Positions 17,402-28,697 of a stretch of DNA of 32,260 nt are shown here, in pieces. The DNA lies in assembly GCA_021734245.1 (NCBI GenBank), contig JAIPJH010000029.1, positions 1-32,260 of the forward strand. Reading direction: 5' to 3'. Numbering within the stretch: the first letter of the stretch is position 1; each line of letters begins with the position of its first letter. The notes below the pieces were generated by a model. That model worked only from the letters and a program-made list of their open reading frames with translations. It searched no databases and was not told where the DNA came from. Both the position numbers and the translations under genes were made by a program. This DNA is from Candidatus Cloacimonadota bacterium. GTDB taxonomy: Bacteria > Cloacimonadota > Cloacimonadia > Cloacimonadales > TCS61.

Positions 17402-17497
17402 ATTTCCTCCCCGAAGCGTGAGGGAAATATAATAAAATCTAAATAATCATTTTCTTCCCTGTCTGGGGAAGATGTCCCGAAAAATCGGGACAGTTGG
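17402..17497 (+). repeat. Composite palindromic repeat, family 1, copy A (three hairpins)
   Basis: Three stem-loops stand in a row: 17402-17428 (one bulge), 17454-17471 (6-bp stem) and 17473-17492 (8-bp stem TGTCCCGA / TCGGGACA with an AAAA loop). The last two follow the order stem 1, GATG, stem 2, then a GGAG-containing tail, as in the copies at 24044 and 28613. The repeat ends directly before the ribosome binding site of the lipid kinase gene. Confidence 0.6.
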
Positions 17498-17513
17498 AGC
17501 GAAGGAAAATAAT

Positions 17514-18410
17514 ATGAACACAAAATGGTTTTTAATTGCAAATGCAACAGCCGGCCGTGGTAAAACAGGTCGTAAGATCAGTGAGTTGATCAAATCTTTG
17601 AATGAGCATAAATTTGATTTTGAGATCGAGCTGACAAAAACACCGCTGCATGCTACTGAACTGGCAAAAGAGGCAATCAAAAAAGAATACAGGAAAATTG
17701 TGGTTGTTGGTGGTGACGGCACTTTGAACGAAACAGTGAACGGCATTATGCAGAGCGGAAAGCAAAATGAAATTAAACTTGGTTTGATCCCCGAAGGTGG
17801 TGGAAATGATTTTGCCATGAACTTCAAACTTTCTAATAACATCGATAAAGCAATTGAACTTTTGAAGAGAGAAAAAACCTGCAAAGTAGATATAGGAAAA
17901 ATCGAGGATTACTTTTTTATCAATGCTCTGGGGCTTGGATTCGATGCCCAGGTTGCGCTTATTTCGCGTAGTATTAAACATCTGAATGGCTTGCCCAGAT
18001 ATCTGGTGGCAGTAATTCGAGCCTTGGTGAAGCTGCAGAAATTTGAAGCTGAGATCACATTGGATAACTGCACTTTAAAGAAACCATTTTTACTATTTTC
18101 TATCGGAAACGGGCTTTCTACCGGTGGAGGATTTTTACTCACTCCGGAAGCTCGTGTAAATGACGGTCTTCTGGATATTTGTTTGATCCAGGATGTTACC
18201 AGAAGGCGCATTCTTAGTTTACTGCCAAAAGCCATAAAAGGTCAACATCTCAAAGAGCCGGAAGTTATTATTCATCAAAGCAAAAAGATCCATGTGAAAA
18301 CCGATAAAAAACTTCCCATCTATTTTGATGGTGAGCTTCCTGAGTTGAAGCATCCATTTAATTTTACAATCGAAATTCTTCCAAAACAAATAGAGTTTAT
18401 TACAGGATAG
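17514..18410 (+). CDS. Diacylglycerol kinase family lipid kinase (YegS/DgkB type)
   Basis: This 298-residue cytosolic or membrane-peripheral kinase has the DAGK catalytic signature. Its nucleotide-binding motif is VVVGGDGTLNETVNG (GGDGT at 66-70) and the second conserved loop is IPEGGGNDF (GGGNDF at 95-100). ANATAGRGKTGR is at the N-terminus, and the C-terminal beta-sandwich contains GNGLSTGGGFLLTPEARVNDGLLDICLI. It phosphorylates a diacylglycerol or similar lipid using ATP, probably in phospholipid recycling. A longer frame back to 17472 exists, but the ATG at 17514 has AAGGA seven bases upstream and starts exactly at the conserved domain. The 124-base gap before it is filled with repeat hairpins. 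Confidence 0.9.
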   Translation: MNTKWFLIANATAGRGKTGRKISELIKSLNEHKFDFEIELTKTPLHATELAKEAIKKEYRKIVVVGGDGTLNETVNGIMQSGKQNEIKLGLIPEGGGNDFAMNFKLSNNIDKAIELLKREKTCKVDIGKIEDYFFINALGLGFDAQVALISRSIKHLNGLPRYLVAVIRALVKLQKFEAEITLDNCTLKKPFLLFSIGNGLSTGGGFLLTPEARVNDGLLDICLIQDVTRRRILSLLPKAIKGQHLKEPEVIIHQSKKIHVKTDKKLPIYFDGELPELKHPFNFTIEILPKQIEFITG

Positions 18411-18528
18411 TCTTTTATATTTTTGATAAACTCGACAATTCACGATTTATCATAATTATAAAACATTTAACCTAAAGCCAAAAATCTAATCTCTTTATTT
18501 CCAACCAATTAGCTCACACCCTCTGGAA

Positions 18529-18544
18529 TGGCACAAGAAATGCA
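18529..18544 (+). promoter_or_regulatory. Sigma-54 (-24/-12) promoter of the TSNG-repeat protein gene
   Basis: The sequence TGGCACAAGAAATGCA has GG and GC separated by exactly ten bases and differs at two of fifteen positions from the site at 8383. The expected start point near 18,555 is about 26 bases before the ATG, the same geometry as the other site. Upstream, GATAAA (18425-18430) and TTTATC (18446-18451) form an inverted repeat roughly 115 bases before the start point. It is a possible activator site, but a weak claim. Confidence 0.8.
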
Positions 18545-18580
18545 GTTACTATTGGTAGAAGTGAATTTTGGAGGAAGAAG

Positions 18581-19483
18581 ATGAAAAAGATAATAATATT
18601 TTTAGCAATTTTATCTATAGCTGTTCTGTTATATGGAATTTCTCAAACGCGTGAAATCAACAAAACTTTCGAAGTAACAGATAATACGGAGCTGAACTTG
18701 GATAACATCAATGGTCCTATAAATATCGCTGGCTGGGATAAAGATTACATCGACGTAACAATAATCAAAAAAACTACCAACGGTGATGAGGAATTAGAAA
18801 AAGTTGAAGTAAATTTTACACATGAGAAGGATCTGACAATTGAAACCAAATTCTTGGAAAAAAATGCCAAAGTAAGTGTAAGTTATGATCTCAGCGTCCC
18901 ACGCTTTATTATGCTGAAGAACATCCACACTTCCAATGGCAGTATCAGCTTGCAAGATGTAGGAGTTGTAGATCAGGTTTCTACTTCAAATGGTTCGATA
19001 AATCTGGAGAAATGCGAAGGAAAGATCACAGCAGATACCAGTAATGGAACTATCAAAGCAAACGAAATAAACGGTTCTGTATTTGCCTACACATCAAATG
19101 GCAGGATCAGGTTAGAAAATGTAACAGGTCTCGTTGATGCCAAAACATCAAACGGCAGCGTTAAATTATTTAATGTGGCAGCTATTGAAAATGCAAAGAC
19201 TTCCAATGGTTCAATAAAAGCTCATCTTGCCAGTTTACCCACCGACACAAATCTTCGTACAAGTAATGGCTCAATTACTGTTTTTCTTTCGGAAAATTTG
19301 AATGCCGATATTAAAGCATCTACCTCCAATGGAAAAGTTAAGCTTCACGATTATCAAATACTTGCCAGCGATATTTCCAAATCCTATGTTTCAGGTTCTA
19401 TTGGAAATGGTGGAAATCTTCTTAGATTGAGCACATCGAACGCCAGCATTAATATTTATAATGAAAGAGATATCCAATTCTAA
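18581..19483 (+). CDS. Exported TSNG-repeat (DUF4097-like) adhesin-like protein
   Basis: This 300-residue protein has a signal peptide or N-terminal anchor (hydrophobic residues 3-18). From about residue 120 to the C-terminus there are nine imperfect repeats of 18-20 residues (one longer), each opening with TSNG or TSNA followed by a short beta strand (SISL, SINL, TIKA, RIRL, SVKL, SIKA and so on). Such T/S-N-G ladders are typical of the DUF4097 putative-adhesin family and should form a stacked beta-solenoid. No sorting module of the NYPNPFNP type is present. GGAGGAAG precedes the ATG. It has its own sigma-54 promoter upstream and an intrinsic terminator downstream, so it forms a single-gene unit under inducible control. 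Its ligand or role is unknown. Confidence 0.85.
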   Translation: MKKIIIFLAILSIAVLLYGISQTREINKTFEVTDNTELNLDNINGPINIAGWDKDYIDVTIIKKTTNGDEELEKVEVNFTHEKDLTIETKFLEKNAKVSVSYDLSVPRFIMLKNIHTSNGSISLQDVGVVDQVSTSNGSINLEKCEGKITADTSNGTIKANEINGSVFAYTSNGRIRLENVTGLVDAKTSNGSVKLFNVAAIENAKTSNGSIKAHLASLPTDTNLRTSNGSITVFLSENLNADIKASTSNGKVKLHDYQILASDISKSYVSGSIGNGGNLLRLSTSNASINIYNERDIQF

Positions 19484-19542
19484 ACAATCTTCTCTGATGA
19501 GAAATAAATAAAAGCATTGATTCCCCCCATATGATCAATGAC

Positions 19543-19570
19543 AAGCCCCGAAATTTTCGGGGCTTTTTTT
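19543..19570 (+). terminator. Intrinsic terminator of the TSNG-repeat gene
   Basis: A GC-rich stem (19543-19551 with 19557-19565) includes GCCCCG / CGGGGC and is followed by a run of seven T. It lies 59 bases past the stop codon. Confidence 0.92.
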
Positions 19571-19907
19571 GTTGCATAACTCTGAAATGGCTCTCTTTCA
19601 AAAAATTCTTTCACTTGAGACTTTCAGGGTTGGAATCAAAATAATCCGGAAGGTTTTTACTTGCATCTCCCAAAAAAATTGGCTGATATAAACCTAACTT
19701 ATTGTTATAAAGGAAATTATTTCTATTTTGTTCGTCCAAAACCTCATCCAGTAAAGTCCACGAATTTATTCGCGGGATGCGTGGAAAGTTTTTACATTTG
19801 ACAGATAATTTCCTATTCTAATCCTGAACAATATCACCCTGAGTGATTCCGATTCATCGGAATTGTATTGAAGGGCGTGGTAGTAAATTTATATTTTGAG
19901 GAAAAAA
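19571..19907. other. Gene-free spacer before rarA
   Basis: No coding region is apparent. It contains an imperfect hairpin at 19757-19777 (inner arms CGAAT / ATTCG), a TTGACA at 19798 without a convincing -10 element, and the palindromic repeat at 19834-19880. The rest is unremarkable AT-rich sequence. Confidence 0.5.
19834..19880 (+). repeat. Palindromic repeat, family 2, copy 1
   Basis: The outer arms (CACCCT near 19835, AGGGCGTG near 19872) are complementary with one mismatch. The centre is an inner stem ATTCCGAT / ATCGGAAT (19846-19863). The flanks CCTGAGTGAT and TGTAtTGAAGG match the inverted copy at 28310, while the inner stem differs. Confidence 0.6.
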
Positions 19908-21224
19908 ATGACAAATCAGATTTCATTATTTGAAGAAACGAAAAAACCGACCAATGTACCTCTGGCAGAGAAGATCAGACCGCATGAATTGGAACAGATC
20001 TATGGACAACATAAGCTGCTGGAAGAAGGTTCACAACTTCGTAACATGATAGAAAACGACATCTACAGTTCTTTCATTTTGTGGGGTCCTCCCGGAACCG
20101 GAAAAACCACGATAGCGCGAGTGATCGAATCTAAAACATCACATCGTTTCATTTCTTTCAGTGCTGTTCTTTCGAGCATCAAAGATGTGAAAGCCGTGAT
20201 GAAAGAAGCTGAATACAATCTGAAAGCACACAACAAAGGTACTATTCTTTTCATCGATGAGATCCATCGTTTCAACAAATCTCAACAAGATGCGTTTCTG
20301 CATTACATCGAATCCGGTGCTGTTATTCTGATCGGAGCTACAACCGAAAATCCTTCCTTCGAAGTTATTTCGGCTTTGCTTTCCCGCTGCAATGTTTTTG
20401 TGCTTCAGCAGCTGTCAGATGAAGATATCATCAAGATCATTCAGCGTGCTTTGGAAGCACTTTCTGTCGATGTAAAATTTGAAGAAAAAACACTTCCCTA
20501 CTTAGCAGAACTTTGTGGTGGCGATGCTCGAAAAGCTCTGAATTATCTGGAAATTATTTTGCAGAATATCAAAGAAGAAAAACTGATCGATGTTAAATTT
20601 ATTTCTAAAATCCTCAGCCGCAAAGCAATGTTTTACGATAAAGACCGCGAGGAACATTACAATGTGATCTCGGCTCTGCATAAATCTTTACGCGGCAGCG
20701 ATCCGCAGGCTGGTTTATATTGGCTGGCCCGCATGCTGGAAGCCGGTGAAGATCCGTTGTACGTGGCGCGCAGATTGGTGCGGTTTGCTTCCGAAGATGT
20801 AGGGCTGACCGATCCGAATGCTCTGGTACAGGCAATTGCAGTAAAAGATACCTGTCATTTTCTGGGAATGCCGGAAGCAAACGTTGCGCTGGCGCAACTG
20901 GTGGTCTATCTGGCCACCGCACCAAAAAGTAATGCACTCTATTCTGCTTATAAAAAAGCTGCTTCAGATGCCCAGAAAACCAGTCATCTTGGCGTGCCGC
21001 TTCATATCAGGAATGCACCGACAAAATTAATGAAAAATCTTGATTACGGCAAAAATTACACCTACGATCACATGCATGAAAATGCCTACAATTATCAAAA
21101 ATATTTTCCCGATAAAATGGCTGAAAAATCATATTATCAACCTTCCAAATTCGGTTATGAAAAAGAAATCCAAAAACGCTTGGACTGGTGGAAAAAATTA
21201 CGGGATGAGCAGGAAAACAATTAA
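19908..21224 (+). CDS. rarA: Replication-associated recombination protein A (AAA+ ATPase)
   Basis: This 438-residue protein of the RarA/MgsA/WRNIP1 family is a clamp-loader-like AAA+ ATPase that works at stalled replication forks. Walker A is GPPGTGKTT (K66) and Walker B FIDEIHRFN (DEIH 117-120). Sensor 1 is GATTENPSFEV and arginine-finger region LLSRC. The C-terminal tetramerisation domain has DPQAGLYWLARMLEAGEDPLYVARR and SEDVGLTDP. An N-terminal QISLF (residues 4-8) resembles the beta-clamp-binding consensus. I chose the ATG over the TTG at 19896 because GAGGA lies about 6 bases before it. The gene appears monocistronic. Confidence 0.95.
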   Translation: MTNQISLFEETKKPTNVPLAEKIRPHELEQIYGQHKLLEEGSQLRNMIENDIYSSFILWGPPGTGKTTIARVIESKTSHRFISFSAVLSSIKDVKAVMKEAEYNLKAHNKGTILFIDEIHRFNKSQQDAFLHYIESGAVILIGATTENPSFEVISALLSRCNVFVLQQLSDEDIIKIIQRALEALSVDVKFEEKTLPYLAELCGGDARKALNYLEIILQNIKEEKLIDVKFISKILSRKAMFYDKDREEHYNVISALHKSLRGSDPQAGLYWLARMLEAGEDPLYVARRLVRFASEDVGLTDPNALVQAIAVKDTCHFLGMPEANVALAQLVVYLATAPKSNALYSAYKKAASDAQKTSHLGVPLHIRNAPTKLMKNLDYGKNYTYDHMHENAYNYQKYFPDKMAEKSYYQPSKFGYEKEIQKRLDWWKKLRDEQENN

Positions 21225-21254
21225 ATTCTTGACTCTCTTATTTTTTACTACAAT

Positions 21255-21281
21255 TTGACTTGCATAATCTATAAATAAAAT
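21255..21281 (+). promoter_or_regulatory. Candidate promoter of the exported TPR gene
   Basis: TTGACT (21255-21260) and TAAAAT (21276-21281) are separated by 15 bases, 24 bases before the start codon. The -10 matches five of six consensus bases; the spacer is shorter than the usual 17. Confidence 0.35.
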
Positions 21282-21305
21282 AGATGCGGCAAACACGGAG
21301 GGGAT

Positions 21306-23123
21306 ATGTTTAAAGCATTCAGACGTCTTTTTTTAATTGTTTCTATTCTAATTTTATTTTCAACTATTTTATCTGCTGAATTCCTTTTACAAAAGGGAAA
21401 CCTATTTCGAGAAGATCGTTTTGTAGAAATAGATCTGAACACCGTAAATCAGTTGCAGGTAATTTTTCAGATTGATCCCATTGATTGGGAATTGCCCAAA
21501 AATGTTATTGAGATAGTAAACGAAAATTTGAAAATTATTCAAAATGATAAAAAAATAAAAATAACGGATACAAAAGCTTTTGATAATTATCTACTGATCA
21601 GTTTTTCAAGAAGTAATTTAAATATCTTTGAAGATTTTGAATTCCATAATTCAGAAAATACACTTCCTTTTTCCATTGCTGAAAAAGATTGGCCGGATTA
21701 TGATGAGTATCACGATTATTATAATAAAGCTCTCGATTTTGCTATCGATATGGATTACAAATCTGCTTTTTCATCATTAACAAATTTTCTGGTTAATGAT
21801 AAAAACATTGAACAATTCAGTTTCACTTCCAAAGCCAGAGATAAAGCAGGTGAATGCATTGAAGATTATTTTAAAAATAAACAAGTTTTTCTGGATACTC
21901 ATAAAATTAAAAACAGCAAAGAATTAAAGCAAACTGCCATCTCAGAAATCGATAGTTTGATCATCAAATTGCAGGAAGCAGATCAACTTTTTACTGTTTA
22001 TTATGATTTCTATCCTGAAAGTGAACTGAAACAAAACAACGAGCAGATAATTGCCGATTATCAGAGTTATCTGACAAATTTGAAGACGCGCTATTTCAAC
22101 GAGGTTCAGACCATTTTTATCGATCAGGATTACAGCTCCAATAAGTTTAAAATGTTGTTGGACAGCTTGGTTCGTTCACTTTGTTATAAAGATTCGTTTT
22201 GCCTTATCAGTGAATACAATGCTGCGAACATGAATTATATGAATTCCAAGCCCGATTTGAAAAGTAAATTGGAAAATCTGGAATGGTTGAATTTCTTTGA
22301 GCGCTTGATAAAAGCGGTAAATGTTAACATTGAAAACGAGGGATATTTTCTGAATCAGGAATGTATAGAAAGCCTTAAGAACAAAGAAATAAATGCTCCA
22401 CAACCTTATTATCCTATCTTGCAAACTTTGCATTTTGCTCTGCAGGAAAATTGGACTGATTTCAACTTGAAAATTAATGAAGCTATCGAAAGATGTGCTG
22501 ATCTTGAACTTTTACACCTTTTGGAAAGAATGAGAATTGCTTATATCGCTGAAGTCATTTTGAATATTGATGAAAATGTCATTTACGAGATTAATGGTGG
22601 AATTAAGCATCTAAATCTAAATGATTATGAACAGGCAAAAGCAGCCTTTCAGAAAGCAAAAAACTGGCAGAGTAATTTTGCTGTTCCCGATTTGATGCTG
22701 GGAAAACTTTCTATGAAAATGGGAGAATTTGCCAAAGCAGAAATTTATTTTGATAACGCCATAATGAAGCAGCAACAATACCTGGAACCGATCTATGCAA
22801 AACTTGATCTTTTAATAAAAAATGAAAATTATGATGACGCTCTTAAACTTTTGAATGCCGCTTTAACTGCCAATTCCTGGAATAAATATTACTTGCTGGG
22901 AAATCTCAATCTTAAACAAAATAATTTCAAAAAAGCCAAAGAATATCTGGAAATGGCAGCGAATATTAATTCCAACAATTTTGATCTTATGATTTTTTTA
23001 GGCGATTCATATAAAAATTTAACCGACAAAGACAAAGCTGAAATGTATTATAAAAAAGCGGGTTTTTTAAATCCGGAAAATGAACTTTTCAGGGATAGAA
23101 TGCAGGCTTTGAAATCTGAATAG
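21306..23123 (+). CDS. Exported TPR-repeat protein of unknown function
   Basis: This 605-residue protein has a signal peptide (about residues 1-25, core LFLIVSILILFSTILSA). The N-terminal 100 residues are a beta-rich region without a recognised fold. A long helical middle (about 120-420) follows. The C-terminus (about 430-600) has clear tetratricopeptide repeats, for example LNLNDYEQAKAAFQKA, MGEFAKAEIYFDNAI, YLLGNLNLKQNNFKKAKEYL and KDKAEMYYKKAGFLNPEN. It probably serves as a periplasmic or outer-membrane-associated scaffold. GGAGGGG lies directly before the ATG. The radical SAM gene begins 10 bases after its stop, so they may share a transcript although no functional link is obvious. Confidence 0.8.
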   Translation: MFKAFRRLFLIVSILILFSTILSAEFLLQKGNLFREDRFVEIDLNTVNQLQVIFQIDPIDWELPKNVIEIVNENLKIIQNDKKIKITDTKAFDNYLLISFSRSNLNIFEDFEFHNSENTLPFSIAEKDWPDYDEYHDYYNKALDFAIDMDYKSAFSSLTNFLVNDKNIEQFSFTSKARDKAGECIEDYFKNKQVFLDTHKIKNSKELKQTAISEIDSLIIKLQEADQLFTVYYDFYPESELKQNNEQIIADYQSYLTNLKTRYFNEVQTIFIDQDYSSNKFKMLLDSLVRSLCYKDSFCLISEYNAANMNYMNSKPDLKSKLENLEWLNFFERLIKAVNVNIENEGYFLNQECIESLKNKEINAPQPYYPILQTLHFALQENWTDFNLKINEAIERCADLELLHLLERMRIAYIAEVILNIDENVIYEINGGIKHLNLNDYEQAKAAFQKAKNWQSNFAVPDLMLGKLSMKMGEFAKAEIYFDNAIMKQQQYLEPIYAKLDLLIKNENYDDALKLLNAALTANSWNKYYLLGNLNLKQNNFKKAKEYLEMAANINSNNFDLMIFLGDSYKNLTDKDKAEMYYKKAGFLNPENELFRDRMQALKSE

Positions 23124-23133
23124 TTTTGATTAT

Positions 23134-24015
23134 TTGAAAAAATTTAAAATCACTCCCATAAAAGCCAAAAAACTGCTGGGACACGTAAAGCAACCAGACG
23201 ACTGGTTTGGTTTGAAATACAACATGAACCTCTATCGAGGCTGCCAGCATCAATGTATCTATTGTGATACGCGCAGCGAATGTTACCAGATCGAAGATTT
23301 TGAAAATGAAATTCTCTACAAAGAAAATGCTGTCGAACTTTTACGCATAGAATTAGCTTCTAAACGGGTCGTTGGCACTATCGGTTTAGGTTCCATGAAC
23401 GATCCTTACCAACCAATTGAAACCGAGCTGAAACTAACTCATAAAGCATTGGAAGTGATCGCTGAATTTGGTTTTCCTCTCCATATAATTACCAAAAGTG
23501 TTCTGGTTTTGAACGATCTGGAAATCCTGAAAAAGATCAATCGGGTTTATGCCACAGTCAGTTTTACGATCACAACTACCGATGATGACTTGTCAAAGAT
23601 CATCGAACCGCGAGCATCGCTCTCTTCCGAAAGATATGATGCCATGAAAATACTTTCCGAGAATGGAATTCAAACCGGGATTTCCATGATGCCGATCCTG
23701 CCATTTATTGAAGATAATGTGAAAAACATTTCTGACATCGTGGAAAAAGCTAATTTAGCAGGAGTAAAATACATCATCCCTGCTTTCGGCATGACAATGC
23801 GAGATCGGCAGCGACAATATTTTTACAAAAAACTGGACGAATATTTTCCTGGTATCAAACAGAAATATATTCATAAATTTGGAGGAAATTATAGTTGTGG
23901 AGTGGAAAATTATCAGGAACTGAAAAAAGTATTTCAGGAAAAATGCCATGAATATGGAATTTCAACACGAATAATTCCATTTAAAAAGAAAGCTGAACAA
24001 TTGAGGATATTTTGA
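23134..24015 (+). CDS. SPL-family radical SAM protein
   Basis: This 293-residue radical SAM enzyme of the spore-photoproduct-lyase-like family has the iron-sulfur motif CxxxCxxC at C37, C41 and C44 (RGCQHQCIYCDTRSEC). Other family segments are GSMNDPYQPIE, HIITKS, TVSFTITTTDDDLSKIIEPRA and GISMMPILPFIEDN. The true substrate of these non-sporulating homologues is unknown. The start is a TTG 10 bases after the preceding stop with no strong ribosome binding site; the next methionine (residue 31) is only six residues before the cluster motif, so the TTG start is needed. Expression probably depends on coupling to the upstream TPR gene. Confidence 0.85.
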   Translation: MKKFKITPIKAKKLLGHVKQPDDWFGLKYNMNLYRGCQHQCIYCDTRSECYQIEDFENEILYKENAVELLRIELASKRVVGTIGLGSMNDPYQPIETELKLTHKALEVIAEFGFPLHIITKSVLVLNDLEILKKINRVYATVSFTITTTDDDLSKIIEPRASLSSERYDAMKILSENGIQTGISMMPILPFIEDNVKNISDIVEKANLAGVKYIIPAFGMTMRDRQRQYFYKKLDEYFPGIKQKYIHKFGGNYSCGVENYQELKKVFQEKCHEYGISTRIIPFKKKAEQLRIF

Positions 24016-24043
24016 TGAAATATAAAATTTCTTTTTCCGCTTT

Positions 24044-24113
24044 AGCTCCCATGTTAAGGAGAGCTGTCAATCGTCTAAATTTTGTAAAAAGTTTAGACGA
24101 ATGACTGAGGGGT
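24044..24113 (+). repeat. Composite palindromic repeat, family 1, copy C
   Basis: Stem 1 (24044-24065, one bulge) is followed by a 14-bp stem 2 with one mismatch (24066-24079 with 24092-24105), then the tail TGAGGGGTT. The same order of parts occurs at 17454 and 28613. The tail's GAGGGG falls six bases before the GNAT gene's ATG and acts as its ribosome binding site. Confidence 0.6.
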
Positions 24114-24118
24114 TATAA

Positions 24119-24964
24119 ATGAAAAATCTAACCATAAAATCCATGAACAGAGCTGATCTTGATTTCATGATTGATCAGGCTGCCAATGAAGGTTGGAATC
24201 CCGGAATTTTCGATGCTGATACTTTTTATAAAACCGATCCGAATGGATATTTTCTGGCAGAAATAAATGGAAAACCAGTCGGTTGTATTTCGCTGGTAAA
24301 ATATGATAACACTTTTGCTTTTCTGGGTTTCTTTATCGTCATCGAATCCATGCGTGGTAAAGGTATTGGAATGAAACTTTGGCAGCAGGCAATAAATTAT
24401 GCAGGAAATTGTAATATCGGTTTGGATGGCGTGGTTGCACAGCAGGAAAATTATAAGAAAAGCAGTTTTAAATTTGCCTACAACAACAGCCGCTACGAAT
24501 TTATCAAACAAACAGAAATAAAAATGCCGGACGCTGTTAAGAATTTGAGAAATTTTGGCTTTGCAGAAATTCTTGAATACGACAAAATCTGCTTTCCAAC
24601 AAAACGAAAAACTTTCCTGAAAAATTGGCTGAAGCAAACAGATTCACTTTCATTTGGAATTCTACAAAACAACAAATTTTCCGGTTTCATTGTTATCCGT
24701 CCCTGCCGGGTCGGCTATAAGATCGGGTCACTTTTTGCTGATGATTTTGCGACTGCTGAAAAATTATTTTCCGCCGCTGTTTCACAAATTGATATCGGTC
24801 AAAAGGTTTATCTTGATATCCCCGAAATAAACCCGGAAGCAGTGAAATTTGTGCAGAAAAACAAAATGGAAAAAGTGTTCGAAACAGCCCGAATGTACAC
24901 TGGTTATTTTCCAAAAATCGACATCGATAAAATATTTGGAGTAACTACTTTCGAACTGGGTTAG
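24119..24964 (+). CDS. Two-domain GNAT family N-acetyltransferase
   Basis: This 281-residue cytosolic protein has an N-terminal GNAT domain (about 1-140) with the acetyl-CoA loop RGKGIGMKLWQQA after the FLGFFIVIESM strand. A second, smaller C-terminal domain follows (about 150-280, with SFGILQNNKFSGFIVIRPC and KVYLDIPEINPEAV), as in the YitH/Acetyltransf_18 class. The N-terminal segment DQAANEGWNPGIFDADTF is also typical of that class. The acyl acceptor is unknown. The start codon follows GAGGGG provided by the repeat copy just upstream. It lies in the same direction as the genes on both sides but is separated from the peptidase gene by 67 bases. Confidence 0.85.
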   Translation: MKNLTIKSMNRADLDFMIDQAANEGWNPGIFDADTFYKTDPNGYFLAEINGKPVGCISLVKYDNTFAFLGFFIVIESMRGKGIGMKLWQQAINYAGNCNIGLDGVVAQQENYKKSSFKFAYNNSRYEFIKQTEIKMPDAVKNLRNFGFAEILEYDKICFPTKRKTFLKNWLKQTDSLSFGILQNNKFSGFIVIRPCRVGYKIGSLFADDFATAEKLFSAAVSQIDIGQKVYLDIPEINPEAVKFVQKNKMEKVFETARMYTGYFPKIDIDKIFGVTTFELG

Positions 24965-25031
24965 AGAAAATTCCTTGTCAATCTGAATTCAAATTATCGC
25001 TTTGAATCAATAAATTTATTGGAGTATTATT

Positions 25032-27425
25032 TTGAAGAATTCATTAGTTCTACTATTCATTGGGAGTTTTTTTATGACATTATTCGCATCTGATAGCGGT
25101 TACAAATTACCGCCAAAACATATTCAGGATGTCTTTGATACCAAGCGTCCAAACTACTACAGTTTTGTTCCTTTCCATAATCTGGCGTTAGAAAAAAATT
25201 ATCAACGTTATCAAAGTTTGGAGCAGATTTCCGATCCAACCGTAAAGCTGGCAGGAAGAGAAATTTCCATAAAATTGAATGCTTCTGCAACTCGTTATCC
25301 CGAAAATTATCTGGCAATTTATGACTTTACTAAGGATAAGAAAATAAATGTCGATCTACCTGAAAATATCAAAATCCGAGATTCTAAACTTTCTTTCGAT
25401 AATTCCAAACTGGCGATCAGCTATGAAACCGAGGAAGGAATTAAACTGATGATGGTAGATGTGGATACTGGAAAGATAAAATATTTTGAAGATTTTGTTT
25501 TGAACGATGCTTTCGGTGATACAGCTTTCTGGTGGATGAATGACAACAAAACTCTTTTTATCAAAATAATTCCGCCCGAACGCGGTGAAATGCCAAAACG
25601 ACCAACCACACCAGCTTCTCCTACCATGGAAGAAACCAGCGGAAAAATCAGCACAACTCGAACTTATCAGCACTTGCTGAAAGACAAATTCGACGAAGTT
25701 CTATTCGATTATTTTTTCACTTCCTATCTGGCAAAATTAAATACTTCCAATCAAAAACTGAAAATAATCTCCAAACCAAAAATCTGGGAAGAAATGATTT
25801 TATCACCTGATAACGACTACATTTTTGCCACTATTTTGAATAAACCATATTCCTATCAAGTGCCTTATTATCGCTTTCCGCAGTCGGTGCAGATTTTGGG
25901 TAAAAAAGGAAATTTCGTAACCACAGTTTACGATCGTCCACTTCAGGATCAGGTTCCAATTGGTGGGGTCTACGTTGGGCCCAGACGGTTTGACTGGCAG
26001 CCATTGAAAGATGCTTCGCTTTTGTGGGTAGAAGCGCTTGACGAGGGCGATCCTAAAAACGAAGTTCCGTATCGTGATAAAATAATGCGCTGGGATGCTC
26101 CATTCGAAAAAGATCCTTATGAGATTTTCCGCACAGTTCATCGCTCATCTCATACAGACTGGTCGGAAATCGAAGATGAAATAATTTATTCGGAATATGA
26201 TCGCGACCGCATTTGGATGACGACTTATCTTTATAAAATCGGTAGCAAAGAAGAGCCGAAAATGCTTTTTGATATGAGCCGCAGAGATAAATATAACTTC
26301 CCTGGAAAATTGATTCATAAAAAGACGGAACGCGGTGAAAATGTATTTCTGCATCGTGGAGATTTCGTTTACTTTGATAACGATACCGGAGCCACTCCGG
26401 AAGGACGTTTTCCCTATCTTTCCCGTTTCAATTTAAAGACAAAGAAAACAGAAATTTTGTGGCGGTGTCAGTTCGATCATTACGAAACATTCCTGGCTTT
26501 CGTGGATGAAGACATGAATAAGATCGCTATTCGCAGTGAGAGCAATCTTAAATATCGTGATTATTGTTTAGTAGATTTAGATTCGAAGATAAGAACAAAA
26601 CTTACCGATTATCCCAATCCTTACCAGGAAATCACCGATCTCAAAGTGGAATTGGTAACATACACTCGCAAAGATAGCATTCCGCTTTCCGGCACTCTGA
26701 TATTACCGGCAAATTACCAGAAAGGTGAAAGGCTGCCGCTCATTTACGAAGCTTATCCGCAGGAATATACCGATGCTTCCACAGCAGGCCAGGTTACGAA
26801 TTCTGCGAATCGTTTTCCCAATTTCTGGGGTGCATCAATTCGTTATTTAGTTTTGGAAGGTTATGCAGTTCTTTTGAATGCTTCCATTCCTATTATCGGC
26901 GATCCCGAAACAGTTAACGAAACTTTCATCGAACAAACCGTGAGCAGCGTGGAAGCAGCTATCGATTACCTGGACAAGCGAGGTATTATCGATCCGGAAA
27001 AAGTGGGAATTACCGGACACAGTTATGGAGCTTTTATGGTGGCAAATGTGCTGGCTCACAGCGATATTGCAGCTGCCGGAGTTGCCAAAAGCGGAGCTTA
27101 TAATCGCATGCTTACTCCGTTTGGTTTTCAAAGTGAACGCCGCACGCTGTGGGAAGCCAAAGATTTTTATGTGGAAGTTTCTCCCTTCATGTTTGCCGAT
27201 AAGATCAAAGAACCGCTGCTGCTAATCCACGGAGAAGATGATCCCAATTCCGGCACTTATCCGATGCAGTCTAAACGCTTTTATCAGGCTTTAAAAGGAA
27301 ATGGCGGAACTGCTCGCTACGTTCTGCTGCCCAATGAAGGTCACGGTTATGCTGCGCGGGAATCGCTGCTGCACGTTCTGGCAGAAACCATAGAATGGTT
27401 CAATAAATATGTGAGAGACAAGTAA
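25032..27425 (+). CDS. Exported S9 family serine peptidase (glutamyl endopeptidase / CGEP-like)
   Basis: This 797-residue enzyme has a signal peptide (about 1-19), an N-terminal beta-propeller and a C-terminal alpha/beta-hydrolase domain. The catalytic triad is Ser664 in GHSYG, Asp737 in HGEDDPN and His771 in NEGHGY. The N-terminal segments YKLPPKHIQDVFD, KLAGREISIKLNA, PERGEMPKRP and TRTYQHLLKDKFDEVLFDYF recall, by memory, the plant chloroplast glutamyl peptidase branch of the prolyl oligopeptidase family rather than true prolyl oligopeptidases. It probably degrades peptides in the periplasm or outside the cell. Translation starts at TTG with GGAG seven bases upstream; the next Met is residue 15, inside the signal peptide. 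Confidence 0.9.
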   Translation: MKNSLVLLFIGSFFMTLFASDSGYKLPPKHIQDVFDTKRPNYYSFVPFHNLALEKNYQRYQSLEQISDPTVKLAGREISIKLNASATRYPENYLAIYDFTKDKKINVDLPENIKIRDSKLSFDNSKLAISYETEEGIKLMMVDVDTGKIKYFEDFVLNDAFGDTAFWWMNDNKTLFIKIIPPERGEMPKRPTTPASPTMEETSGKISTTRTYQHLLKDKFDEVLFDYFFTSYLAKLNTSNQKLKIISKPKIWEEMILSPDNDYIFATILNKPYSYQVPYYRFPQSVQILGKKGNFVTTVYDRPLQDQVPIGGVYVGPRRFDWQPLKDASLLWVEALDEGDPKNEVPYRDKIMRWDAPFEKDPYEIFRTVHRSSHTDWSEIEDEIIYSEYDRDRIWMTTYLYKIGSKEEPKMLFDMSRRDKYNFPGKLIHKKTERGENVFLHRGDFVYFDNDTGATPEGRFPYLSRFNLKTKKTEILWRCQFDHYETFLAFVDEDMNKIAIRSESNLKYRDYCLVDLDSKIRTKLTDYPNPYQEITDLKVELVTYTRKDSIPLSGTLILPANYQKGERLPLIYEAYPQEYTDASTAGQVTNSANRFPNFWGASIRYLVLEGYAVLLNASIPIIGDPETVNETFIEQTVSSVEAAIDYLDKRGIIDPEKVGITGHSYGAFMVANVLAHSDIAAAGVAKSGAYNRMLTPFGFQSERRTLWEAKDFYVEVSPFMFADKIKEPLLLIHGEDDPNSGTYPMQSKRFYQALKGNGGTARYVLLPNEGHGYAARESLLHVLAETIEWFNKYVRDK

Positions 27426-27440
27426 CGCAATGCTCTGTCT

Positions 27441-27520
27441 TTGCGACTCGGCGACAGTGAGACATTGTGACTTTGTGGCTTTGGGACTTTGTGAAGATGA
27501 GATTAGGCGACTGGGAGATT
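27441..27520 (+). repeat. Degenerate 8-nt tandem repeat, ten units
   Basis: Ten consecutive units of exactly eight bases follow the consensus TTGNGACT (for example TTGCGACT, TTGTGACT, TTGTGGCT, TTGGGACT, AGGCGACT). They begin 16 bases after the peptidase stop codon. The rest of the spacer to 27607 has a small hairpin (GACAAA 27540-27545 with TTTGTC 27556-27561) and fragments like those of the family 1 repeats. Confidence 0.75.
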
Positions 27521-27607
27521 TAAGAGTATTGATAAGATGGACAAATCAGCTTTTGTTTGTCTTCCCTGTCCCGCCGTAGTTTGAACGTAGGTGGATTCGT
27601 TACTAAA

Positions 27608-28267
27608 TTATACCATCCCAATCACTGAAATCTGGCGTCCAGTTGTTCCATTTTCCCGAAAAGAAAAATAACTGCTGTCTTCTTTTGTGCAAATGTCATG
27701 ATTAAAAATATTCTCTCTCAATATTCCAGCTTTCTGTAGTTTAGTTTTCACCACTTTCTTCAGATCAAGTTTGGGAAATATTTGTTCCACTTCGGTTTTG
27801 GAAACAAATTCATCGAAAGTTTTCTGATCTACAGGATAGCATTTTCCGCAGACCGCAGGTCCTATTTCCACTCGAATATCGGTTGGATCGCTGTTGAACT
27901 TATTTACAAAAATCTGAACTGCTTTTTCGGCAATATTCAGTTCTGTACCTTTTCTGCCAGAATGCAGTGCAGCGATCACATTCTTTGTTTCATCCCAAAC
28001 TAAGATCGGAATGCAGTCAGCAGTTTTTACTGCCAGAAAAACATCAGGAACATTTGTTATCAAACCATCCACACCTGTTATTGGTTTTGATATTTGGATA
28101 TCATCAAATTCGTTCTCTTCAATAATTTCAATTCGATCGGAATGAACTTGTTCCATTAAGATTATGCGATTGGTTGGAATTGAAAGATCTGCAATTTTTA
28201 TAGAATCTGAATTTTTTAGTAATTCCAGATCGAAGTTTTTATCTCCAAATTTTTTGATGATTTTCAA
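27608..28267 (-). CDS. pgeF: PgeF / YfiH (laccase-domain) family protein
   Basis: This 219-residue protein of the YfiH/DUF152 family has a metal site visible as H42 (MEQVHSDR), C85 (TADCIPIL) and H102 (ALHSGRKGT). Other family segments are DGLITNVPDVFLAVKTADC, GPAVCGKCYPV and FSFRENGTTGRQ. Members were called multicopper oxidases. They are now linked to purine nucleoside phosphorylase/adenosine deaminase activity and to peptidoglycan editing (PgeF). The usual HAGWRGT reads HSGRKGT, so the tryptophan is lost. The length is a little short (usual about 240). The start is a TTG with AAAAGG about 8 bases before it; no ATG fits until residue 38. Convergent with the peptidase gene. Confidence 0.85.
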   Translation of the reverse strand: MKIIKKFGDKNFDLELLKNSDSIKIADLSIPTNRIILMEQVHSDRIEIIEENEFDDIQISKPITGVDGLITNVPDVFLAVKTADCIPILVWDETKNVIAALHSGRKGTELNIAEKAVQIFVNKFNSDPTDIRVEIGPAVCGKCYPVDQKTFDEFVSKTEVEQIFPKLDLKKVVKTKLQKAGILRENIFNHDICTKEDSSYFSFRENGTTGRQISVIGMV

Positions 28268-28309
28268 AAGAATTCCTTTTTCTTATTTTCCTAACTTTCG
28301 CTCTTCAAA

Positions 28310-28351
28310 TCCTTCGGTACAATCCGGCAATTGCCGGATCACTCAGGATGA
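28310..28351 (-). repeat. Palindromic repeat, family 2, copy 2
   Basis: The centre is a perfect 18-base palindrome (28322-28339, ATCCGGCAATTGCCGGAT). On the minus strand the flanks CCTGAGTGAT and TGTACCGAAGG match the copy at 19834. The inner stem differs in sequence but remains fully complementary. Confidence 0.6.
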
Positions 28352-28385
28352 CATAATTGATTGCTATGAAAGAAAATACTTATTG

Positions 28386-28520
28386 GTTCAATCGTCTCGA
28401 TTGAACTGAATCTTTGTTTTGATCGTCCCCAATCAATTTTTGTTAGAATTGATCCCAAAATAGAGTGTGGGTTAATAATAACAAAAACATTCTTACCTGA
28501 AAACTTCGCTTTCAGGCAAG
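28386..28520. other. Cluster of three isolated hairpins in a gene-free spacer
   Basis: The spacer 28268-28697 has no gene. Besides the repeats listed separately it holds three inverted repeats. The first is a perfect 9-bp stem with a 3-base loop (28386-28394 / 28398-28406). The second is a 7-bp stem (28432-28438 / 28447-28453). The third is an 11-bp stem with one mismatch (28492-28502 / 28510-28520). None has a clear U-tract, though the last could slow transcription from either side. Confidence 0.5.
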
Positions 28521-28612
28521 TCTGGAATTTTTGAGCCGAAAACATGAAACTGATAGACTCCTATAGACGTTAAGTCCAACCTCTCACTCATCTTCATAAA
28601 TTTTTCAACTTC

Positions 28613-28651
28613 TCTCCCCTGTTTGAGGGGAGATGCCAAAGGCAGAGGGGT
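28613..28651 (+). repeat. Composite palindromic repeat, family 1, copy B
   Basis: Stem 1 is TCTCCCCT / AGGGGAGA (28613-28620 with 28626-28633), stem 2 is TGCC / GGCA (28634-28637 with 28641-28644) and the tail is GAGGGGT. The order matches the copies at 17454 and 24044, but stem 2 is much shorter. Confidence 0.65.
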
Positions 28652-28660
28652 AAAAACTTC

Positions 28661-28685
28661 TGGACTCCACGATATGTGAAGTCCA
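28661..28685 (-). terminator. Candidate terminator of the ATPase-GNAT gene
   Basis: A 10-bp stem with one mismatch (28661-28670 with 28676-28685) and a 5-base loop lies 12 bases past the stop codon. On the minus strand it is followed by GAAGTTTTTA. The T-run starts four bases after the stem, so termination may be partial. Confidence 0.5.
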
Positions 28686-28697
28686 ACGGTTGTTCAT

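Follow-up and report, generated by a model that had tools for sequence, protein, structure and literature searches.

The PIT, TMECO and BoxC intrastrand triplex repeats have been known since 2000 (Hoyne and Maher 2000; Holder et al. 2015, PMC4666352), and for decades no function, origin or enzyme has been attached to BoxC/PIT. Searches for these repeats admitted short loops, of 1-6 nt in Holder et al. (PMC4666352) and of 0-10 nt in Hoyne and Maher, as cited in the same paper, and Holder et al. reported no association with transposons, phages or plasmids (PMC4666352). The triads of the antiparallel purine motif are G*G:C, A*A:T and T*A:T (PMC4666352). Other systems that invite comparison are the REP/RAYT (TnpAREP) pairs, with small dispersed palindromes and a nuclease gene amid its own repeat family (PMC6006769, PMC2817692), and the Vsr-like homing endonuclease I-Bth0305I (3r3p). 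Here we analyze a 32,260-nt stretch of Candidatus Cloacimonadota bacterium (GCA_021734245.1, contig JAIPJH010000029.1, positions 1 to 32,260, forward strand), called the window, which is contig C29 of a 3.1-Mb genome (G000, the own genome), together with the family of palindromic repeats that it carries. With a probability of roughly three in four, we read these elements as mobile-like foldback purine-motif triplex repeats that have a gene of the DUF559 family as their partner.

A preliminary description of the window had proposed three copies of a modular repeat, each built from a first stem on CTCCC/GGGAG, a paired second stem of unrelated sequence and a G-rich tail. All three copies were found where it had placed them, and they divide into the following parts.

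17453..17459, + strand: copy 1, pyrimidine arm TCTTCCC of hairpin 1
17466..17472, + strand: copy 1, purine arm GGGAAGA
17473..17491, + strand: copy 1, hairpin loop 2, TGTCCCGAAAAATCGGGAC, with an outer T-A pair formed with A17492
17492..17497, + strand: copy 1, putative third strand AGTTGG; triads A*A G*G T*A T*A G*G G*G; detector score 6
24044..24050, + strand: copy 2, pyrimidine arm AGCTCCC
24058..24065, + strand: copy 2, purine arm GGAGAGCT, degenerate, one A bulged or mismatched
24066..24105, + strand: copy 2, hairpin loop 2, GTCAATCGTCTAAA...TTTAGACGAATGAC, with one A-A mismatch
24106..24113, + strand: copy 2, putative third strand TGAGGGGT, matched by hand
28613..28620, + strand: copy 3, pyrimidine arm TCTCCCCT
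28626..28633, + strand: copy 3, purine arm AGGGGAGA
28634..28643, + strand: copy 3, hairpin loop 2, TGCCAAAGGC, with an outer T-A pair formed with A28644
28644..28651, + strand: copy 3, putative third strand AGAGGGGT; 8 of 8 triads match; detector score 8

The proposed first stem does not describe copy 1, which has CTTCCC/GGGAAG, and it is imperfect in copy 2, which the automatic detector misses for this reason. The copies follow the triad rule of G*G:C plus A(T)*A:T with at most one mismatch, copy 3 perfectly. Over the full arm, copies 1 and 2 have one triad mismatch each, and copy 2 additionally places a T opposite C (its triads read T*C G*G A*A G*G, a G*A mismatch, G*G G*G T*A). Folded as single-stranded DNA against 200 dinucleotide shuffles each, copies 1, 2 and 3 gave z = -6.4, -7.1 and -2.5, and 0, 0 and 5 of the 200 shuffles, respectively, did equally well.

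The G-rich tail is no loose feature: in every form, it matches the purine arm in mirror order, base for base. Examples of arm and tail are GGGGAG-A...A-GAGGGG, GGGGAAG...GAAGGGG, GGGAAAA...AAAAGGG and AGAGGGAGG...GGAGGGAGA. At the position that the search left free, the closing pair of stem 1 covaries with the letter preceding the tail (T:A with A, C:G with G, G:C with T). Across 432 kb of own DNA taken without selection, 23 full mirrors came after a purine hairpin arm, against 2 direct repeats, 1 reverse complement and 4.5 ± 1.3 matches with shuffled arms; the two readings other than the mirror served as controls. The triad tables were built free of any code, using only equal G-runs as anchors and scoring the remaining letters blind. 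In each of the three sets, A or T is the partner of an arm A, and G that of an arm G. In the own-genome table, an arm A faces A in 30 and T in 12 of 44 cases, and an inner A faces T in 34 of 38 (p = 8e-12). The cross-phylum table, from which scanned copies were taken out, gave p = 3e-29, with T opposite an arm C in 24 of 44 cases. The table from DUF559 flanks has A opposite A in 64 and T opposite A in 56 of 136 cases, and G opposite G in 63 of 76 (p = 3e-43); the direct-reading control was much weaker than the mirror (p = 0.015 in these flanks). A triplex detector found 35 elements in own DNA and 1-2 in shuffled DNA. Parallel-stranded pairing of the tail with the pyrimidine arm would obey an identical mirror rule; it was set aside, since T opposite A is not among its predictions. 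The third-strand relation of tail to arm lies outside the base pairs in which a covariance model is written.

The order of parts is that of a class II PIT: a pyrimidine arm, its complementary purine arm, and a third segment that mirrors the purine arm. Judged by sequence, the elements are PIT/TMECO/BoxC intrastrand triplex repeats in a hairpin-looped form, and one strand of each can fold into an antiparallel purine-motif triplex, as it may do in this cell. T*C:G is the best-fitting triad for a C:G inversion. A family on a Pseudanabaena plasmid (locus L279) shows another pairing, with arm T facing tail C, a non-standard purine-motif triad; the table from DUF559 flanks has this pairing in 11 of 15 cases, probably all from this one family.

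The second stem is best read as the loop joining the second and third strands, where compactness is needed and sequence is free. If the tail is a third strand, stem 2 must therefore be paired but not conserved, and because the loop keeps its ends together, it would be either very short or itself a hairpin. Loop 2 is bimodal in length, with 1-7 nt in 106 of 350 distinct elements and the remainder longer and mostly paired. Among the 179 distinct loops of 9-40 nt, 125 are closed by a terminal stem 4 bp long or longer, compared with a mean of 33 and a maximum of 41 after shuffling, which puts pairing of stem 2 far beyond chance. The window copies, with paired loops of 19, 40 and 10 nt (copies 1, 2 and 3), depart from the short second loop of the published PIT searches (0-10 or 1-6 nt), but short- and hairpin-loop forms coexist in the own genome, where other copies have loops of 1-5 nt. 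The window copies are therefore a variant form, and a hairpin-looped form would have escaped the earlier searches because of their loop limits of 10 or 6 nt.

The family is large. The strict pattern CTCCCN{3,14}GGAGATGN{6,36}AGAGGGG has 52 exact matches in the own genome and a looser pattern has 137, with none for either reversed pattern; the possibility of few copies, raised at the outset, is thereby removed. Sampled elements avoid long reading frames, since 7 of 26 midpoints fall inside open frames of at least 150 codons, which make up 90% of the DNA. In public genomes, the core pattern occurs in at least 119 stretches. The phyla among the matches listed are Bacillota, Bacteroidota, Chlorobiota, Cloacimonadota, Patescibacteria, Margulisbacteria and Pseudomonadota, and elements are also carried by Cyanobacteriota and Deinococcota. 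The likeness to PIT/TMECO/BoxC extends to the class II order (Y-R-reverse-Hoogsteen), the G*G:C and A(T)*A:T triads, the intergenic location, the many copies and the inverted pairs, and the E. coli motif adjoins ycjD. Two differences stand out: loop 2 is often a free-sequence hairpin of 10-40 nt on widely variable arms, and the published repeats had no known gene partner.

DUF559 is a small, little-studied nuclease family, a common 'domain of unknown function'. DUF559 proteins match the PF04480 profile, and an alignment of them has the invariant residues E25, W29, Q45, D54, F55, E65, G68, H71, D78 and R81 (first-sequence numbering). An AlphaFold model (pLDDT 89) has as its best PDB match 3hrl, a DUF559 protein, followed by I-Bth0305I (3r3p), with Vsr lower. 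YcjD has been related to Vsr within the PD-(D/E)XK superfamily (PMC1189080). Family score, predicted fold and conserved acidic residues identify DUF559 as a Vsr-like PD-(D/E)XK nuclease. It shares the catalytic-domain fold of I-Bth0305I but is a free-standing protein of ~115-140 residues flanked by repeats, not an intron-borne enzyme.

Several lines of evidence tie the elements to this gene. First, among 75 surveyed DUF559 genes from at least 8 phyla, 65 have an element within 400 bp, and the pooled flanks contain 165 elements in 60.6 kb, against 1.0 in dinucleotide shuffles. The own genome has four DUF559 genes, each adjoined by elements. Two element-negative loci (L221 and L223) showed, by eye, imperfect relatives with mirror tails. 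Second, the elements are close to the gene: at 33 Cloacimonadota loci, 75 are near it (up to 400 bp away) and 4 far (more than 700 bp away); at 30 loci from many phyla, in genomes selected for carrying elements, 74 are near and 7 far; and at 12 loci selected by protein similarity alone, all 12 have an element, with 33 near and 11 far, one Photobacterium array accounting for 8 of the far ones. For the plasmid search, the DUF559 probe was a composed, consensus-like sequence used for locus finding only. Third, both flanks share an element family in 21 of 28 loci (4.5 with shuffled partners, maximum 11), and direct repeats bracket DUF559 in 28 of 60 loci, as compared with 4 of 54 controls. Fourth, the mean element count in Cloacimonadota is 10.4 for genomes that carry DUF559 and 0.67 for those that do not (p = 4e-8); in the own family, ten genomes without DUF559 have 0 or 1 element and those with it up to 137. 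For papers that name DUF559 or ycjD, in a set drawn mainly from open-access literature, the titles and abstracts listed contain no link to triplex repeats. DUF559 frames often extend into the flanking element (L209, L210 and others), with C-termini such as SPLEGEKTRRISSQRG, and annotated DUF559 proteins may bear repeat-encoded tails. In one Flavobacteriales locus (L262), DUF559 lies between long GCTCCCCTTGCTAAGGGGAGC arrays with solo hairpins, which suggests array growth.

In Deinococcus psychrotolerans, a DUF559 unit lies between paaD and paaZ, bounded by 56-bp inverted repeats with 1 mismatch, each containing a triplex element; in Deinococcus sp. QL22, paaD and paaZ are neighbors and the unit is absent. 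This is the one locus where the unit resembles an insertion sequence, in having terminal inverted repeats around a coding region and in being missing from a relative; the other loci have direct repeats. The QL22 flanks have diverged too strongly for a comparison of target-site duplications. The site of window copy 1 holds a DUF559 gene between elements in one genome of the same genus (G001) and a different triplex-like element in another (G002; CCCCTC..GAGGGG, tail GGGGTG); at the copy 2 site, G002 has unrelated sequence. The insertion footprint that the preliminary description had suggested looking for in relatives did not appear in clean form at the window sites, where turnover is seen. E. 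coli has ycjD as its DUF559 gene, located between sapF and fabI, and in a K-12 strain the BoxC/TMECO motif known from the literature follows 175 bp downstream. The ycjD region is covered to at least 80% in 3334 of 5426 complete genomes, and other genomes have efflux genes at this site, which are the eef operon (PMC12817139). At sapF-fabI (L282-L284), ycjD with BoxC and the eef operon are alternative occupants of one site. This has been read in print as loss of eef; an alternative is replacement by a ycjD unit.

The clustering of triplex elements at DUF559 genes across at least 8 phyla suggests an overlooked kind of mobile DNA, and we infer that DUF559 recognizes and mobilizes the elements. In the scheme we propose as the most likely, the pyrimidine and purine arms would pair as hairpin 1, and the tail would fold back antiparallel onto the purine arm as a third strand through G*G:C, A*A:T, T*A:T and probably T*C:G. 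The strand could be exposed during replication, and the triplex would then mark the ends of the unit. DUF559 may nick or cut at the triplex or at a target, and repair or recombination would copy the unit or a solo element into a new site. Such a partnership would resemble that of REP and RAYT, with a different enzyme and a different DNA structure: a Vsr-like PD-(D/E)XK nuclease here, an HUH Y1 enzyme in RAYT; a triplex with a mirror tail here, a GTAG-tagged hairpin in REP. A broader proposal, toward which we lean only slightly, is that intrastrand triplex repeats, BoxC/PIT included, are the ends and solo remnants of widespread minimal mobile elements driven by DUF559/YcjD, the first to be marked by a DNA triple helix instead of a hairpin or duplex sequence. 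A true DUF559 partnership would provide a candidate driver for BoxC/PIT and a candidate job for DUF559, E. coli ycjD included. It would also turn the repeats into a natural record of covariation in a DNA triple helix, with the triad rules of chemistry legible in sequence differences among many genomes.

Several observations weigh against a DUF559-partnered triplex repeat. Several own-genome copies lie far from any DUF559 gene, and many E. coli lineages are without ycjD. The T*C:G signal (24 of 44) is present in one of three sets, and the co-occurrence of DUF559 and elements is phylogeny-controlled only within one family. The window copies offer no clean empty site, and relatives at 75-80% identity have other sequence there. 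We know of no DUF559 activity, target or site duplication on record. Triplex formation on isolated DNA was shown for the short-loop E. coli motif only (PMC4666352).

The association is statistical, and DUF559 could be driver or hitchhiker, with the causal direction running either way. The strongest rival, which we hold to be possible but rather unlikely, accepts the triplex repeats as real and has DUF559 homing into them as safe multi-copy targets, with no part in mobilization. The direct copies of one repeat that bracket DUF559 in 28 of 60 loci are what insertion into a repeat would leave, the fold is that of the homing endonuclease I-Bth0305I, and E. coli has ~23 BoxC copies (copy number from PMC4666352) per one ycjD. 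However, a hitchhiker fits poorly with genomes that lack DUF559 and are nearly element-free (0-1 against up to 137 in the own family), with the Deinococcus unit, whose own ends are inverted terminal elements, and with the many element families, not a single target, that DUF559 accompanies.

The preliminary description had left the choice between a functional RNA or DNA element and a mobile repeat. Dispersal, conserved structure and a sequence-free stem 2 resemble a mobile miniature repeat acting as DNA, and a structured RNA or terminator, with the tail as a ribosome-binding or antiterminator segment, is highly improbable: copies 1 and 2 do lie directly upstream of start codons and GAGGGG is Shine-Dalgarno-like, but the tail mirrors rather than complements the arm, T is tolerated opposite A, elements occur in both orientations relative to DUF559, RNA does not form purine-motif triplexes (PMC4666352), and PIT elements had no promoter or terminator effect according to Hoyne and Maher as reported in that paper.

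The RAYT-type transposase once suggested as partner fares no better, and we give very little credence to the elements being ordinary REP elements of group 5 or subclass 2.6 'atypical structures'. Short intergenic palindromes in high copy number and inverted pairs, several RAYTs in the genome, and the atypical repeats of subclass 2.6 (PMC6006769) would agree with it. Against it, the flanks of all of the about 11 own RAYT/Y1 genes (8.8 kb) gave one weak detector match, compared with 3.1 per kb near DUF559; inspected own RAYTs have unrelated repeats of their own; and the GT[AG]G tag at the hairpin foot is absent from the family core of the copies inspected. At least seven own-genome RAYT genes (L033-L039, on contigs C73, C7, C96, C123, C59, C10 and C102) were seen, most of them between direct copies of a different repeat family each. 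The intergenic stretch that holds copy 3 (window 28450-28690) is a mosaic that includes a relative of the C10 RAYT repeat (CCCAAAATAGAGTGTGGGTTAA...TTCTTACCTGAAAACTTCGCTTTCAGGCAAG) and GACTCCACGATATGTGAAGTCCAAC repeats that recur beside the C59 RAYT. On C73 and C96, the end of the RAYT frame is encoded by the repeat itself.

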